This document shows positions 57,259-63,411 of a stretch of DNA of 64,000 nt, piece after piece. The stretch spans positions 310,001 through 374,000 of the forward strand of contig NZ_FOFM01000001.1 in assembly GCF_900110875.1 (NCBI RefSeq), read 5' to 3'. Below the pieces are notes generated by a model. The model was not told where the DNA came from. It ran no database searches and saw only the letters and a program-made list of their open reading frames with translations. This stretch comes from Pseudovibrio axinellae. GTDB lineage: Bacteria; Pseudomonadota; Alphaproteobacteria; Rhizobiales; Stappiaceae. The position numbers were made by a program, and so were the translations under genes. Numbering within the stretch: the stretch's first letter is position 1; each line of letters begins with the position of its first letter.

Positions 57259-57374
57259 TTATGCCAATACATGCAAAATTGTGGTTTGCGAATAGTTGCG
57301 ACTTTCACAGAGCTAGCTTGTACGCCAATAGTATTGCGGTTTTTTAGCAAGCTGGTTTGAAAGGTGATATTAAA

Positions 57375-58016
57375 ATGGCTGCTGCGCGGAATGAAAAAGA
57401 CAAAGTTATAGGATGTATCCTTAGCGGCGGAAAATCGCGACGTATGGGTCATTCAGACAAGTCCTTAGTAACCTTGGGCAAGGCAACCTTATTGGAACAT
57501 GTCGTGTCGCGTTTGCGGCACCAAGTGCAGCAGCTTGTGGTGAGTGTAAATGACCCTGGCGACGCCTATGAGCGCCTTGACCTACCGCTGCTTAAGGATC
57601 AACTCGCGGGACATTTGGGACCATTGGCCGGAATTCACGCTGCGCTAAGCTGGGCAAAATTGCATTCACCCCATGCAACGGATGTTGCTAGTATCGCGGT
57701 TGATACGCCATTTTTCCCAACAAACTTGGTTGAAACTCTCATGCTTGCCAGGGTGACGAACCCTGAGCCTCCCGTTATTTGTTCAAGTGCGGGACGTTCT
57801 CATTTTGCCTTCGGGCTTTGGCCAATCACTCTTGCGGACCCACTAAAGGACTACCTGTTGAATGGTGGGCGCAGTATTAAAGGCTTTTTCAACGAGCACG
57901 CACCGGTCATTGTTAATTTTGAATCCCAGAACACAATTGATCCTTTCTTCAACATCAACACCCCTGAAGACATTCCCTTAGCACTTGAATATCTTTCGCA
58001 ATTACACGTGCAATAA
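57375..58016 (+). CDS. mobA: Molybdenum cofactor guanylyltransferase MobA
   Basis: Adds GMP to molybdopterin to make the guanine dinucleotide cofactor. From the ATG at 57375 the protein has 213 residues. The nucleotide-binding motif is LSGGKSRRMG..DKSL (residues about 16-31), with later LAGHLGPLAGIHAAL, VDTPFFPTNLV and FNINTPEDIPLALEY. AAGGTGAT lies upstream of the ATG; a TTG six codons earlier is less likely. It precedes moeA by 106 bases. mobB, often between them in relatives, is absent. Confidence 0.93.
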   Translation: MAAARNEKDKVIGCILSGGKSRRMGHSDKSLVTLGKATLLEHVVSRLRHQVQQLVVSVNDPGDAYERLDLPLLKDQLAGHLGPLAGIHAALSWAKLHSPHATDVASIAVDTPFFPTNLVETLMLARVTNPEPPVICSSAGRSHFAFGLWPITLADPLKDYLLNGGRSIKGFFNEHAPVIVNFESQNTIDPFFNINTPEDIPLALEYLSQLHVQ

Positions 58017-58122
58017 ATGAGGAAACTTCCAGATGTCTGTTAGATCTTTGATTTTTGCCAAATCCAACGGCCTCACTATGGTAAATAAGGAAAGTACTTA
58101 GACCCGATATTCTGGAATAGGC

Positions 58123-59367
58123 ATGAACACGAAAACGCCCCTTCTGAGCTTTGACGAAGCCCTTTCACATCTGCGTAAACTCGGCCATTGTAAGGTCGGC
58201 GTTGAAGACACTGCGTTGATGACGGCCTATGGCCGTGTTCTTGCTGAGGATATCATTGCGACCTGCGACCAGCCTCCCCTGGACAATTCCGCGATGGACG
58301 GTTACGCGATTTCGCGCTCGCTTAATGAGGCTAAGCAAACCTCTTTTCCAGTTGTCATGGACGTTTATGCCGGCTCGATGCCTGAAACAACGCTGAAACC
58401 GGGTGAAGCTGCGCGTATCTTTACTGGTGCACCGGTACCAGAGGGTACCGGTTTTGTCGCTCCTCAGGAGGACTGCCTAGAGACCACCTTTGATGGTGTG
58501 CGCTTGGTGAAGCTCTCAAGATCCTATCAATCAGGGTGCAATATTCGCCGTCAGGGTGAAGATCAGAAAAAGGGTGCCCCGATTGTTCGGGCGGGCGCAT
58601 CTCTTCGGCCGCAAGAAATTGCTGCAGCAGCTTCCATTGGCATGGGGCAGGTCAAGACATACAAGCGCCTAAAGGTCGGCGTGTTTTCAACTGGCAACGA
58701 ACTTATCCGCCCTGGCACTTCGCGAAAAGCAGGGCAGATATTCGATGCCAACCATTTCCTATTACGCGGAATGCTGGCAAATTTGCCCGTTGAGCTTATC
58801 GATCTGGGAATCTTGGTAGATCAGCGCGAGGTCGTTGAAAGCGCGTTGGAAGCAGCCTCCAAACAATGCGATGTTATCTTAACATCTGGCGGCGCAGGTG
58901 GGGGTGATAAGGACTTTGTTTCAGCTACGCTTGGCAAGCTTGGCAAGACGACGTTCTGGCACCTAGCGGTTAAACCTGGTCGCCCGTTCATGGTGGGCGA
59001 GCTGCCTAAGTGCGTCTTCATCGGCCTTCCCGGCAATCCGGTTGCAGCAACCGTGGCTTTTGCGTTTCTTGCACGCCCTCTCATCGAGGCGATTGCAGGT
59101 GGAACTTTTAAAGAAGCGTCCCGCCAATATATTCCAGCCAATTTTGAGATTTTGAACCGAAAGACAGGACGTCGTGAATTCCTGCGTGGGCGCCGGGTAC
59201 AGGATGGGGGAGCGATGAAACTCTCCAAGTACCACAGCGATGGTTCTGCATTGTTATCTTCGCTTACCTTCGCTGATGGCTTTATCGAAATCAGTGAGGA
59301 GGTCTCTTCGGTTTGCAAAGGAGACCTTTTACCGTTCATCAGCTTTGATGAGATTGGTCTTATATAG
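58123..59367 (+). CDS. moeA: Molybdopterin molybdotransferase MoeA
   Basis: Inserts molybdenum into molybdopterin. The 414-residue protein has family segments DQPPLDNSAMDGYAI, IFTGAPVPEGTGFVAPQED, VFSTGNELIRPG, ILTSGGAGGGDKDFV, WHLAVKPGRPFMVGEL and FIGLPGNPVAATVAFAF. Length and motifs are normal. It follows mobA in the same direction and they are probably co-transcribed. moaA, the first pathway enzyme, lies 8 kb upstream. Confidence 0.96.
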   Translation: MNTKTPLLSFDEALSHLRKLGHCKVGVEDTALMTAYGRVLAEDIIATCDQPPLDNSAMDGYAISRSLNEAKQTSFPVVMDVYAGSMPETTLKPGEAARIFTGAPVPEGTGFVAPQEDCLETTFDGVRLVKLSRSYQSGCNIRRQGEDQKKGAPIVRAGASLRPQEIAAAASIGMGQVKTYKRLKVGVFSTGNELIRPGTSRKAGQIFDANHFLLRGMLANLPVELIDLGILVDQREVVESALEAASKQCDVILTSGGAGGGDKDFVSATLGKLGKTTFWHLAVKPGRPFMVGELPKCVFIGLPGNPVAATVAFAFLARPLIEAIAGGTFKEASRQYIPANFEILNRKTGRREFLRGRRVQDGGAMKLSKYHSDGSALLSSLTFADGFIEISEEVSSVCKGDLLPFISFDEIGLI

Positions 59368-59574
59368 CTAAGCAATTTGGCCCTTCAAGAATCGTAGGCG
59401 AAGCGTTTTCCACGTTTGTATATTTTTGTGCGATTTTAACAATTTTTCCCTCAGACAGGCGAAAGTTGCAAGATATTATCGAAAACTATCTTCAGTTTGC
59501 TATTAATTAGCCTAAACCGCATTCGATATAGGTTGATCTACGGATACTTTTAGTGAAACATAAGGCTCGGTTAT

Positions 59575-59601
59575 GCAGGGGCCTACTTAAAGAAGCCCTG
59601 C
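59575..59601 (+). promoter_or_regulatory. Leader hairpin element, copy 1 (first binding-protein gene)
   Basis: Hairpin GCAGGG (59575-59580), 15-base loop, CCCTGC (59596-59601), followed by CAAGA and a ribosome binding site, ending 26 bases before the start codon. The same arrangement occurs before the other two binding-protein genes. Confidence 0.6.
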
Positions 59602-59627
59602 CAAGATAATTAATTCGGGGACATAAT

Positions 59628-60407
59628 ATGCGTATTTTGCGTTTGGCCGCAGTAGCAGCAGTTGCATTAACAGCCATTTCTGGCGCGGAAGCAAAAGATT
59701 GGACTAAGGTTCGCATGGGCACCGAGGGTGCCTACCCTCCTTTTAACTACACCACCGCTGACGGAACGCTGACCGGCTTTGACGTTGAGATCGGCAACGC
59801 TCTTTGTGATGAGCTAAAGCTTGAGTGTACCTGGGTCACTCAGGACTGGGACGGTATCATTCCTGGCCTTATTGCAGGTAAGTACGACACCATCCTTGCT
59901 TCCATGTCCATTACTCCAGAGCGCATGGAAAAAATCTCTTTCTCAAAGAAATACTACAACACACCTCCTGGGATTGCTGTGCGCAAAGATTCAGAGCTGA
60001 GCGAAGCAACTACAGAGGGCCTTGAGGGCGTTCGTCTTGGTGCACAGGGCAGCACAACGCACTCTCAGTTTGCTGAAGAGATCCTGAGCGGCTCCGATAT
60101 TGCGCTTTACCCGACATCTGAAGAGTATAAGTTGGACCTGGAAAACGGCCGCGTTGACGCTGTTGTCGATGACGTCATGGTTTTGACAGAGTGGGTAAAC
60201 TCTGATCAGGGTTCTTGCTGTAAAATTCTCGGCACTATGCAGTCTATTGATCGTATCCACGGCGAGGGCGCTGGCATCGGCGTACGTCAGGGCGACGAAG
60301 ACCTTGCGGCGTTGTTCACAAAGGGTATTGCCGCTTTGCGTGCTAACGGCAAATACAAAGAAATCAACGACAAGTACTTCACATTCGACGTATATGGCGG
60401 CGAATAA
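59628..60407 (+). CDS. Amino-acid ABC transporter substrate-binding protein, paralog 1
   Basis: Periplasmic binding protein of the lysine/arginine/ornithine (HisJ/ArgT/OccT) family. The 259-residue protein has a signal peptide (MRILRLAAVAAVALTAISGAEA), then the ligand domain KVRMGTEGAYPPFNYTTADG, LTGFDVEIGNALCDEL, ITPERMEKISFSKKYY and DLENGRVDAVVDDV. A Cys-Cys pair (SDQGSCCKILG) is conserved in all three paralogs. It has its own strong terminator and leader hairpin, so is a separate transcription unit. Basic amino acids or opines are likely ligands. Confidence 0.93.
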   Translation: MRILRLAAVAAVALTAISGAEAKDWTKVRMGTEGAYPPFNYTTADGTLTGFDVEIGNALCDELKLECTWVTQDWDGIIPGLIAGKYDTILASMSITPERMEKISFSKKYYNTPPGIAVRKDSELSEATTEGLEGVRLGAQGSTTHSQFAEEILSGSDIALYPTSEEYKLDLENGRVDAVVDDVMVLTEWVNSDQGSCCKILGTMQSIDRIHGEGAGIGVRQGDEDLAALFTKGIAALRANGKYKEINDKYFTFDVYGGE

Positions 60408-60444
60408 GAACTTTTTGACGATTACCTGATTTTAAATCTGGTGC

Positions 60445-60479
60445 AAACCCCGGGAGTTTTTGCTTCCGGGGTTTTGTTT
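60445..60479 (+). terminator. Intrinsic terminator after the first binding-protein gene
   Basis: Stem of 12 pairs with one G-T (AAACCCCGGGAG / CTTCCGGGGTTT), 6-base loop and a T tract, 37 bases after the stop. Confidence 0.93.
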
Positions 60480-60765
60480 TGCCAATTTGCTCAGACTACA
60501 AGTCGCCCTGCTAACACTGTGGCTTTCGACCATACAGAGTGCCACCTCCCGATAAATTTCAAAGGTCAGCCCAGCAGCATTTTCTTTCGTGACCGGGAAT
60601 GTGGGGCGCTTCTACGACCGCAATTTCTCTGGAATTTCATCCACACAACCAGTCAATTTGCCGGATTTTAATTCGTATTGACGGCATTACGGATATATTA
60701 TTCTAAAATATCCGTGATTTCAGTTGATGTTCTGCGCAATTTTAATAATATCCATTTCAACAAAT
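60475..60765. other. Spacer upstream of the second binding-protein gene
   Basis: About 290 bases after the terminator, containing the promoter of the second binding-protein gene. I see no RNA gene or protein gene here. Confidence 0.4.
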
Positions 60766-60794
60766 GCAGAGCACAAACAAAACCAATTCTCTGC
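60766..60794 (+). promoter_or_regulatory. Leader hairpin element, copy 2
   Basis: Hairpin GCAGAG (60766-60771), 17-base loop, CTCTGC (60789-60794), followed by CAAGA, 22 bases before the start codon. The middle pair is A-T where copies 1 and 3 have G-C, a compensatory change. Confidence 0.6.
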
Positions 60795-60816
60795 CAAGAA
60801 GAACAAGGATATACGG

Positions 60817-61593
60817 ATGTCTTTTTCCCGCATGGCACTTGCCGCAATTTTGACCCTGACTGCGACATCAGCTCTTCAGGCAACTGAGATCACCAAATTA
60901 CGTGTTGCGACTGAGGGGGCTTACCCTCCATTCAACTATACCGGGCCAGATGGCGTACTGACCGGTTTTGACGTTGAGATCGGCAACGCTCTGTGTGCTG
61001 AAATGAAAGTTGAATGTGAGTGGGGAACTCAAGAGTGGGATGGCATGATCCCAGGCCTTGTGGCTGGCAAGTACGATGCAATCATCGCCAGCATGTCTAT
61101 TACTGAGGAGCGCCTTGAGCGCATCTCGTTCTCACGCAGCTATTACAACACACCATCCACCGTTGCTGTATCCAAAGACTCCCCTATTTCCGAGATCACA
61201 CCTGAAGCCCTAACCGGCCTTTTGATCGGCGCACAGGGCGGCACGACGCACTCAGTCGTAGCCGAAGAGGTTTACTCAGAGTCTGACGTTTCTTTGTATC
61301 CAACTTCAGAAGAGTACAAACTGGACATGGAAAGTGGCCGGCTTGATGCAGTGATTGATGACTTGGGAGTGCTGCAAAGCTGGATAAACTCAGATGCTGG
61401 CGCGTGCTGTAAGATTATTGGCTCGTTGCCTATTCAACCGGAGCTGCACGGGCAAGGCATTGGCGTTGGAGTCCGAAAGGGACAAGATGAGCTCAAAGGT
61501 CGTTTCTCAAACGCGATCCATGCAATTCGAGAGAACGGCACCTATAAAAAGATAAACGATAAATACTTTTCTCAGGACGCTTTTGGAGAGTAA
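60817..61593 (+). CDS. Amino-acid ABC transporter substrate-binding protein, paralog 2
   Basis: Second paralog, 258 residues from the ATG at 60817, with a signal peptide (MSFSRMALAAILTLTATSALQA). The mature protein is close to paralog 1 (RVATEGAYPPFNYTGPDG, ITEERLERISFSRSYY, DAGACCKIIGS). Some ligand-lining residues differ. The frame extends upstream to 60724 but this runs across the leader hairpin and is not counted. AAGGA lies seven bases from the ATG. No clear terminator follows. Confidence 0.93.
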   Translation: MSFSRMALAAILTLTATSALQATEITKLRVATEGAYPPFNYTGPDGVLTGFDVEIGNALCAEMKVECEWGTQEWDGMIPGLVAGKYDAIIASMSITEERLERISFSRSYYNTPSTVAVSKDSPISEITPEALTGLLIGAQGGTTHSVVAEEVYSESDVSLYPTSEEYKLDMESGRLDAVIDDLGVLQSWINSDAGACCKIIGSLPIQPELHGQGIGVGVRKGQDELKGRFSNAIHAIRENGTYKKINDKYFSQDAFGE

Positions 61594-61794
61594 GGGCGCT
61601 GAGACACACCTAAAGAGTACGGAGGGAAATTTTCATGTGATGCATCACCGTTTTGGGGAACAAATATGCTCAAAACTGATCAAATTGGAGACTCCCTCTT
61701 TGCAAGATGGATTAAATTGATTACTTTCTACCTAAACACTTAATCAAATAGGTTGAAATCTGATTTTTTCTAACTAAACATGCGCCCCGGCTGT

Positions 61795-61821
61795 GCAGGG
61801 AGCTTTGATGACGACCCCTGC
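61795..61821 (+). promoter_or_regulatory. Leader hairpin element, copy 3
   Basis: Hairpin GCAGGG (61795-61800), 15-base loop, CCCTGC (61816-61821), followed by CAAGA, 25 bases before the start codon. The preceding 50 bases also resemble the region upstream of copy 1 (ATAGGTTGA, then AAACAT and CGG at similar spacing), suggesting a duplicated promoter. Confidence 0.6.
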
Positions 61822-61846
61822 CAAGAATTCACAAAGGGGACTACAA

Positions 61847-62623
61847 ATGGGCTTCGCGCGCATCGCCACTGTTGCAACACTCGCTCTTATTGCTTCAACT
61901 CAGGTTCAGGCTAAAGAGTGGACTAAAATCCGAATTGCGACTGAGGCCTCATACCCTCCTTTCGCGTTCACAACTGCGGATGGTCAGCTGGCTGGCTTTG
62001 AAATTGAGTTGGGTAATGCATTGTGTGCGGAAGCCAAGGTTGAATGTGAGTGGATGCCCGTTGACTGGGATGGCTTGATCCCCGGTTTGGTTGCCGGCAA
62101 GTACGATACCATCATGGCATCAATGTCCATTACACCTGAACGCAAGGAACGCATTGATTTTTCTGCTAAGTACTACCAGACCCCTCCGGGCGTTGCGGTA
62201 CCAAAAGACAGCAAAATCACGGAGGCGAGCGTTGAAGGTATGGCTGGAGCATTGGTCGGTGCACAAGTTGGTGCAACACACGCTGTCTTTGCTGAAGATA
62301 TTTTGAGCAAATCGGATGTATCTATGTACCCAACAGCGGATGAATATAAGCTGGACCTTGAAAGTGGTAGACTGGACGCTGCAATCGATGACGTAGTAGT
62401 TCTCTCCGACTGGCTAAACTCCGAGGAAGGTGCATGCTGCAAACTTCTTGGTACCATGTCATCTATTCCACAGATACATGGTGAAGGCGTAGGTGTTGGC
62501 GTTCGTAAGGGTAACCAAGACTTGGCTGATCTATTCTCGAAAGCAGTGATTGCCTTAAGAGAGAATGGAAAGTACAAAGAGATTAATGATAAATATTTCG
62601 ATTTTGACGCCTACGGAGAGTAA
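61847..62623 (+). CDS. Amino-acid ABC transporter substrate-binding protein, paralog 3
   Basis: Third paralog, 258 residues from the ATG at 61847, with a signal peptide (FARIATVATLALIASTQVQA). Motifs are KIRIATEASYPPFAFTTADG, ITPERKERIDFSAKYY and SEEGACCKLLGTMSS. It is the one directly before the permeases. AAAGGGGAC precedes the ATG. The frame is open upstream to 61793, crossing the hairpin, and is not counted. The likely ligand is a basic amino acid or opine. Confidence 0.93.
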   Translation: MGFARIATVATLALIASTQVQAKEWTKIRIATEASYPPFAFTTADGQLAGFEIELGNALCAEAKVECEWMPVDWDGLIPGLVAGKYDTIMASMSITPERKERIDFSAKYYQTPPGVAVPKDSKITEASVEGMAGALVGAQVGATHAVFAEDILSKSDVSMYPTADEYKLDLESGRLDAAIDDVVVLSDWLNSEEGACCKLLGTMSSIPQIHGEGVGVGVRKGNQDLADLFSKAVIALRENGKYKEINDKYFDFDAYGE

Positions 62624-62647: not shown

Positions 62648-62673
62648 AGCGGCGGGCCATACAACCCGCCGCT
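62648..62673 (+). other. Intercistronic hairpin between binding protein 3 and the permeases
   Basis: Perfect nine-pair GC-rich stem AGCGGCGGG / CCCGCCGCT with an 8-base loop, 24 bases after the binding-protein stop and 27 before the permease start. A weak T/A stretch follows. Such stems often protect the upstream mRNA or attenuate transcription, giving more binding protein than permease. Confidence 0.65.
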
Positions 62674-62700: not shown

Positions 62701-63411
62701 ATGAATGAAATTTTTACACTCCTATCCTTTGGGAACATGGGTTGGGGAGACGAGATCGCACTTGGCGTTGCTATGACCGTTTCTCTTGCATTGGCAAGCC
62801 TTCCCTTTGGCTTGTTATTGGGTTTTCTGCTTGCGCTTGCAAAAAAGTCTGAAGAGCCTTCCTTGCGTGCTGCAGCCAATATTTACACGACGATTTTTCG
62901 GGGCCTTCCTGAGCTCCTTACGCTCTTTCTCGTTTACTACGGCGGCCAAATCCTACTCCAGCAAGTATTGTCGTTGTTTGGAGACGTCTATTTTGAAGTG
63001 AACGCATTTCTGGCAGGTATGATTGCCCTGTCGCTTGTGTTTTCCTCTTACGCCTCTGAAGCATTTCTTTCCGCATTTCGCGCAATCAAACAAGGCCAGT
63101 ATGAAGGCGCTAATGCGCTTGGGCTTGGCTACGTGCAAACAATGCGGTTGGTTATCTTACCGCAGCTTGTGCGCCTGGCCTTGCCAGCTCTGAGTAACCT
63201 CTGGCTCATCCTGTTAAAAGAGACGTCTCTGGTTTCCATCATCGGACTGGCTGATATCATTCGCTATTCAAATATGGCCGCTCGTACGACCAAAGAGCCA
63301 TTCCTGTTCTTTTCAGTCGCTTGTGCCATATACCTCGTCCTGGCCATTATCTCTTCAACCGGCATCAGTCGCCTCGACAGCTGGGCAAAACGCGGGGAGA
63401 CCCACAGGTGA
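62701..63411 (+). CDS. Amino-acid ABC transporter permease (HisQ/OccQ type)
   Basis: Inner-membrane permease of 236 residues with about five helices and the EAA loop EGANALGLGYVQTMRLVILPQL. Other family segments are IFRGLPELLTLFLVYYGG and VFSSYASEAFLSAFRAIKQG. It starts 77 bases after the third binding protein and its stop overlaps the start of the second permease (GTGA). With that permease it forms the heterodimeric channel. Confidence 0.94.
   Translation: MNEIFTLLSFGNMGWGDEIALGVAMTVSLALASLPFGLLLGFLLALAKKSEEPSLRAAANIYTTIFRGLPELLTLFLVYYGGQILLQQVLSLFGDVYFEVNAFLAGMIALSLVFSSYASEAFLSAFRAIKQGQYEGANALGLGYVQTMRLVILPQLVRLALPALSNLWLILLKETSLVSIIGLADIIRYSNMAARTTKEPFLFFSVACAIYLVLAIISSTGISRLDSWAKRGETHR

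Follow-up and report, generated by a model that had tools for sequence, protein, structure and literature searches.

A leader hairpin whose pairing tends to be kept while its letters change before amino-acid binding-protein genes of Pseudovibrio and other Alphaproteobacteria

The DNA analysed here, referred to as the window, is a stretch of 64,000 nucleotides (nt) from Pseudovibrio axinellae (contig NZ_FOFM01000001.1 of assembly GCF_900110875.1, positions 310,001 to 374,000 of the forward strand). The end of the window holds a polar amino-acid ATP-binding cassette (ABC) transporter locus in which three tandem genes, each encoding an SBP_bac_3 binding protein of 258-259 amino acids, are followed by the gene of an ArtQ/HisQ-like permease (Table 1). 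Each of the three genes (copies 1, 2 and 3) is preceded by a leader hairpin. A previous reading of the same DNA from its letters alone (the sequence-only reading) had described this element as a six-pair stem repeated before the three genes, and our inspection bears out the stems, the loops of 15, 17 and 15 nt and the 26, 22 and 25 nt between the end of the stem and the ATG of copies 1, 2 and 3, respectively. The comparison presented below shows that the leaders of orthologous genes tend to pair at this one place across genera while their letters change, and we discuss what such an element may do.

The hairpin appears to be confined to the transporter locus within its own genome. The pattern GCAGNGN{10,25}CNCTGCCAAGA matches 5 times in the genome (5.13 Mb) and never in a reversed control; three of the matches are the window copies, and the two others (L004 and L005; L and G numbers are our handles for loci and genomes) sit in coding sequence and were rejected as chance matches. 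A covariance model built from the leaders of the genus, window copies included, recovers only the three window copies in the genome at E<=1, and an Rfam scan of the window gave no match at the gathering score.

Table 1 Features of the transporter locus (positions within the window) and of a small-RNA gene elsewhere in the genome.
Feature	Position	Strand	Remarks
Leader hairpin, copy 1	59575..59601	+	arms 59575-59580/59596-59601, GCAGGG/CCCUGC
Leader hairpin, copy 2	60766..60794	+	arms 60766-60771/60789-60794, GCAGAG/CUCUGC
Leader hairpin, copy 3	61795..61821	+	arms 61795-61800/61816-61821, GCAGGG/CCCUGC
CAAGA 3' of stem, copy 1	59602..59606	+	
CAAGA 3' of stem, copy 2	60795..60799	+	
CAAGA 3' of stem, copy 3	61822..61826	+	
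Shine-Dalgarno region, copy 1	59616..59621	+	CGGGGA
Shine-Dalgarno region, copy 2	60805..60809	+	AAGGA, without GGGG
Shine-Dalgarno region, copy 3	61835..61840	+	AGGGGA; complement of part of AbcR seed aSD2
Promoter-like boxes, copy 1	59533..59561	+	TTGATC, 17 nt, AAACAT; predicted start about 59569
Promoter-like boxes, copy 2	60724..60752	+	TTGATG, 17 nt, AATATC; predicted start about 60760
Promoter-like boxes, copy 3	61753..61781	+	TTGAAA, 17 nt, AAACAT; predicted start about 61789
Binding protein 1	59628..60407	+	SBP_bac_3, PF00497 1.5e-41; putative lysine/arginine/ornithine or opine type
Binding protein 2	60817..61593	+	SBP_bac_3
Binding protein 3	61847..62623	+	SBP_bac_3
Intrinsic-terminator-like hairpin 3' of copy 1	60445..60474	+	terminator scan; z -4.30
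Stable hairpin between binding protein 3 and permease genes	62648..62673	+	81-nt region z -3.25
Permease, ArtQ/HisQ-like	62701..63411	+	BPD_transp_1; NCBIfam matches under curated cut-offs except TIGR01726
ar15/AbcR-like RNA gene (L251, 1501-1632)	G000:C64:153999-154130	+	32.1 bits against gathering score 40; E 2e-4

Of 61 relatives searched at E<=1e-60, 49 have an orthologue; at E<=1e-95 the count is 85 of 87 family genomes, the exceptions being G003 and G076. The leaders of these orthologues tend to carry the element too. Within the genus, tandem-type leaders number 31 in 10 genomes, and 29 of them keep at least five of the six stem pairs. The CAAGA after the stem, which the sequence-only reading had called kept, is present in all three copies of the window and is kept only partly elsewhere (20/31 tandem-type leaders; CAA alone in 28/31). 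An alignment was made from 31 of the 43 leaders of the genus (30 distinct rows), leaving aside twelve that were near-duplicates, the stemless copy 2 of L100, or more distant paralogues from genomes with two copies (L109, L111, L113, L115, L116 twice and L117 twice). In this alignment 93.9% of the cells are paired, against at most 58.3% when the partner is slid. Double changes occur in 4 of the 6 pairs and in 12 cells, compared with 3.1 cells in shuffled alignments, and none of 500 shuffles reached this level, although the cells are not independent and a single inherited change accounts for most of the A-U pairs of copy 2. More double changes are found in copy 2 of L105 (GCAAAG/CUUUGC) and in L110 and L112.

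Other genera of the family have hairpins at the same position with different arms. In one of them (handle g6) the stem GGCGGG/CCCGCC lies within an outer stem, and in L122 the arms are GGGCAAGG/CCUUGCCC. We aligned 29 of the 45 g6 leaders (28 distinct; the other 16 were divergent or near-identical) on a structure of 13 pairs, in which 95.0% of the cells are paired, a figure that leans towards this structure since it was named beforehand from single folds. Four pairs show double changes (reached by 3 of 500 shuffles), in 6 cells compared with 1.1. The inner stem contains 21 G-U cells and 0 A-C cells; because it varies by G-U and never by A-C, selection looks to act on the RNA of this strand. 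Together with the double changes in the genus, the hairpins with other arms in other genera uphold the earlier proposal that the element is under selection as an RNA structure.

For quantification of folding beyond single alignments, the leaders were compared with a background of 264 leaders from forty 20-kb stretches, all with a recognisable Shine-Dalgarno sequence and preceded by a free stretch of 90 nt or more. In the region from -62 to -18, 55 non-redundant leaders out of 112 from the family had a mean z-score of -1.57, with p<=0.05 in 20 of 55, against a mean z-score of -0.41 and 10.2% in the background (Mann-Whitney 4.2e-9); without the discovery genus the proportion was 17 of 32. When 56 non-redundant leaders including distant orders were analyzed, the mean z-score was -1.15 compared with -0.43, and p<=0.05 was found in 39% compared with 14% (p 8.6e-5), while the control region from -25 to -1 of the same leaders showed no difference from background (p 0.68). 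A generic hairpin pattern run over the 87 family genomes was abandoned as too loose, matching 82 of them, with the reversed control often as high outside the genus.

The analysis was repeated outside the family with 45 loci out of 79 named ones, seven further non-family loci being omitted for genus redundancy (L367, L368, L373, L376, L383, L387 and L393). They gave 47 leaders, and 45 after removal of two second paralogues from Cohaesibacter, of which 32 were non-redundant. These leaders from other Alphaproteobacteria had a mean z-score of -1.69 with p<=0.05 in 15 of 32, compared with 25 of 264 in the background (Mann-Whitney 8.7e-9). The set was fetched after the idea had been formed and repeats the family result, with p-values made optimistic by kinship. 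The mean pairing profile has a peak at -50 to -46 (0.71 in the family, 0.65 in the others) and a second at -30 to -26 (0.67 and 0.69). Both sets of leaders show lower values between the peaks and closer to the ATG, whereas the background is flat at 0.53-0.57 at both peak positions and shuffled leaders are flat as well.

The start of the RNA can be placed, as a prediction, by promoter-like boxes, which sit upstream of the stem in each window copy. Counted from the predicted starts, the stem of each copy would begin at about +7, and the predicted leaders are 57-59 nt long. The conditions that the sequence-only reading had set for its own refutation, orthologues devoid of the element and starts past the stem, come out in its favour as far as predicted starts can tell. 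Of the 115 leaders searched, 101 contain a TTGA box, and adding 36 nt to its position gives a predicted leader of 54-63 nt in 95 of the 101, the search window having allowed approximately 32-84 nt. The minimum-energy fold of 82 leaders contains a helix 5' of the Shine-Dalgarno sequence, which begins at a median of +7 (quartiles 3 and 10) from the predicted start; in g6 the first helix begins at +1 to +4 in 30 of the 45 leaders and at +10 or +11 in 15.

The explanation that we tentatively favour is a stem-loop close to the 5' end that, whatever its sequence, would stabilise the mRNA, aid ribosome loading or do both. The predicted leader would be short, with a stem-loop a few bases past its 5' end, then an A-rich stretch and then the Shine-Dalgarno sequence. 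The stem-loop would act through its fold by hindering decay that depends on the 5' end, in keeping with a review (PMC3997798), according to which a 5' hairpin stabilises mRNA and impedes RppH; access of the ribosome might be aided too, as a second or an alternative effect. The purpose might be to supply the binding protein in excess over its permease. Pairing that is kept while the sequence is free, which such a stabiliser would be expected to show, is what we find in these leaders, the outer stem of g6 being less clear. No letters of arm or loop are common across genera. This makes it less likely that the element is a DNA operator or the core of a riboswitch, or that it serves as a site for one specific protein or, through its loop, for a small RNA. 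The functions proposed in the sequence-only reading (a small-RNA target, a protein-binding leader or an amino-acid-responsive switch) therefore find no support as such.

Several results weigh against the favoured explanation or qualify the observation itself. Single stems are weak, with z-scores of -0.93, -1.72 and -2.66 for the isolated hairpins of copies 1, 2 and 3, respectively; the corresponding values are 1.10, -2.46 and 0.05 in a context of 81-86 nt, 0.66, -2.77 and -0.78 for the region from -65 to -18, and 0.15, -1.38 and 0.55 for the entire predicted leaders. Except in copy 2 the folding energy of the individual window leaders is thus unremarkable, and the support comes from comparison. 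The discovery genus alone is weak also in the family statistics (p<=0.05 in 3 of 23), and the background leaders are themselves above chance, with approximately 10% at p<=0.05. In the genus alignment the number of further pair types does not exceed the shuffles (6 compared with 5.3, reached by 164 of 500), and RNAalifold predicts only four of the six pairs. Copy 2 of L100, which lies 112 nt from the contig end, has no stem, copy 3 of the same locus has a different hairpin (GGCAU/AUGCC), and L243 (G082) has no hairpin. The outer stem of g6 contains 9 A-C cells compared with 3 G-U cells, and RNAalifold on 38 of the 45 g6 leaders, in which divergent rows are misaligned, gave no pair. The -10 boxes are poor, and a generic sigma-70 scan lists none of the promoters of Table 1 (3 sites, with 3.9 expected).

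Folding of the leaders together with 30 coding bases counts on the same side. Under these conditions 19 of the 101 leaders, including window copies 1 and 3, show no helix upstream of the Shine-Dalgarno sequence, the window hairpins have probabilities of 0.34, 0.97 and 0.00 (copies 1 to 3), and the Shine-Dalgarno sequence is unpaired with probabilities of 0.59, 0.28 and 0.54. Since it is partly paired, the window copies give no support to the notion of a ribosome site kept open. It is because of this accessibility, and of the outer stem in g6, that our confidence in a stabilising stem-loop stays a little short of even.

A regulation by AbcR, the small RNA of the Rfam family ar15, is an alternative that we consider unlikely. 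Its seed aSD2 (UUCCCCUC) would pair with an AGGGGA Shine-Dalgarno sequence, and the hairpin would merely hold the site. In Sinorhizobium AbcR1/2 repress the mRNAs of amino-acid binding proteins by means of the seeds aSD1 and aSD2, according to PMC8844928, and PMC5461406 gives CUCCCA and GUUCCC as AbcR motifs in Brucella. The sequence-only reading had seen no AbcR motif. This needs revision, as the genome contains an ar15/AbcR-like RNA gene (Table 1) with a terminator-like end and exact copies of both published seeds, aSD1 being CUCCUCCC, and as the Shine-Dalgarno region of copy 3 is complementary to aSD2. Matches to ar15 at E<=0.01 occur in 43 of the 87 family genomes under stricter filters, one of them above the gathering score. 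The aSD2 octamer is present in 30 of 30 fetched ar15-like loci, counted anywhere in the locus on both strands, and aSD1 lies within 60 nt upstream in 27 of the 30. In Pseudovibrio and its relatives this RNA keeps both seeds even though all but one of the family matches fall below the Rfam threshold.

On the target side, 65 of 89 copy-1-type and 13 of 16 copy-3-type leaders carry AGGGGA within the Shine-Dalgarno window, against 2 of 264 background leaders, and the duplex energies of all 115 leaders taken together lie slightly below background (Mann-Whitney p 0.023). The family leaders are related, though, so that the 89 are not independent cases, and none of the 10 copy-2 leaders has the motif. 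The predicted duplexes with copies 1 and 2 (-13.3 and -11.2 kcal/mol) are no better than those of most unrelated genes, 77.5% and 89.4%, respectively, of 151 background leaders from the same genome being at least as low; for copy 3 (-19.4 kcal/mol) the proportion is 22.5%. Outside the family GGGG is gone from the Shine-Dalgarno window (0 of 47 leaders) while the tendency to form a hairpin persists, and the kept pairing is left unexplained. AbcR may control copy 3, but it does not account for the hairpin.

AGGGGA followed by ATG was also tried as a signature of binding-protein genes and discarded as not clean (182 genome matches compared with 79 in a reversed control); 14 of 30 such loci have no frame of at least 90 amino acids behind the motif, and two look binding-protein-like by eye. 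The idea that SBP_bac_3 genes in general carry the hairpin was likewise rejected, only one (L158, G000:C64:285781-286491 region) of six other such genes in the genome having a strong leader hairpin (GAUGCAGGAC...GUCCUGCAU) by eye. The Shine-Dalgarno region of L158, GAGGGGAA, is the exact complement of seed aSD2. A further observation concerns positions 1501-1592 of L252 (G000:C53:948425-948516, + strand), situated after the gene of a small basic protein, where an intergenic RNA-like hairpin ending in CUGCCAAGA is followed by a strong terminator-like hairpin; it scores 29.7 with the ar15 model, yet is absent from the Rfam scan at E<=0.1.

It is rather improbable, in our view, that the leader element is older than the family and regulatory, with a 3' arm that toggles or a stem that gates the access of AbcR, dosage following the nutrient state and the tandem copies being tuned (a hairpin in copy 2, a mixture in copy 1 and a mostly closed state in copy 3). 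A bistable translation switch, in which the 3' arm would have the 5' arm and the Shine-Dalgarno sequence as alternative partners and temperature, ligand or translation state would set the output, we hold to be improbable. It draws on the predicted refolding of copy 3: with 30 coding bases the 3' arm pairs with the Shine-Dalgarno sequence at a probability of 1.00 and the hairpin is lost in all 9 genomes whose copy 3 has a recognised stem, the tenth copy 3 leader (L100) having none. Under the energy model used, this would weigh against a simple stabilising role for copy 3. Window copy 1 is mixed, its 3' arm pairing with the Shine-Dalgarno sequence at 0.40, whereas copy 2 shows no such behaviour (0.01). 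The copy 3 leaders are moreover nearly identical and amount to approximately one observation under a single energy model; when the coding bases are omitted, window copy 3 is in the hairpin at 0.80 and those of other genomes range from 0.00 to 0.99, and C-rich arms pair readily by chance with a GGGG Shine-Dalgarno sequence.

A ribosome standby platform, where an upstream hairpin with single-stranded flanks would aid 30S loading without a role in decay, strikes us as still less probable. The mean pairing profile, two-armed and then lower as far as the ATG, would suit it, and on sequence grounds it is inseparable from stabilisation, whereas the Shine-Dalgarno sequences of the window are predicted to be partly paired. 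An inverted repeat in the DNA that serves as a transcription-factor site would fit the perfect dyad close to the predicted start in the window, and is made very improbable by arms that differ between genera while pairing tends to persist, and by the G-U cells without A-C in the inner stem of g6. An intrinsic terminator or attenuator was dismissed, the stems being followed by A-rich sequence with no U run and the terminator scan listing none there, and so was a riboswitch, given the lack of a common loop or arm sequence across genera and of an Rfam match in the window at the gathering score.

The genes and other signals of the locus deserve a short description. Binding protein 1 matches TIGR01096 with 241.7 bits, below the cut-off of 256.35, and its nearest solved relatives are nopaline-binding proteins; for these two reasons lysine/arginine/ornithine is only a putative substrate label. 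Among named organisms, its closest relatives come from Pseudovibrio species. Behind the ArtQ/HisQ-like permease lies the 5' part of a second, ArtM/HisM-like permease gene, which runs off the end of the window; it has NCBIfam matches, over cut-off only for the generic permease domain TIGR01726, and no Pfam match. The terminator scan of the region listed 7 terminator-like sites with 3.5 expected. Behind copy 1 lies a terminator-like hairpin that belongs to this gene alone, and a stable hairpin separates copy 3 from the permease gene; the messages of the binding proteins therefore look built to exist and to last separately. In one relative (L106, G022:C5:83500-88500) a different contig bears an additional, fourth copy of the copy-1 gene, most of whose leader is retained. 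Directly 5' of the transporter locus, at 57357-59367, are two genes that we take, by eye, to resemble mobA and moeA of molybdenum cofactor synthesis.

A search of the literature on leaders and mRNA stabilisation, Pseudovibrio, AbcR and ABC-transporter leaders returned nothing on this leader among the matches listed, subscription papers lying outside the search. It is a structured 5' leader hairpin of an ordinary kind, perhaps of the ompA, papA and aprE sort, well conserved and at a place undescribed in the literature searched. Its interest lies in a natural series of leaders over several genera in which the fold tends to stay and the letters do not, with the three tandem copies as an internal experiment. 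If the stabilising explanation is true, it would help to explain the excess of binding proteins over permeases in marine and soil Alphaproteobacteria.

Compared with known systems, the leader shares with the riboswitches and leaders of Rfam a structure before a transport gene, and differs in having neither a gathering-score match nor a core sequence across genera. It resembles the AbcR/ar15 targets livK, prbA and SMa0495 of Sinorhizobium in belonging to an amino-acid binding-protein gene in a genome with an ar15-like RNA, and in that, for copy 3 and the majority of family orthologues, the Shine-Dalgarno sequence is complementary to aSD2; the differences are that copies 1 and 2 do not pair preferentially and that the match is lost outside the family, and the accessible parts of PMC8844928, PMC5461406 and PMC3712013 name no leader hairpin as part of a target. 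From the 5'-terminal stem-loops of ompA and papA in E. coli and aprE in B. subtilis (PMC3997798) it is set apart by a stem that is predicted to begin at about +7; with these it would share the short leader, the simple 5' hairpin and the expectation that the fold counts for more than the letters.

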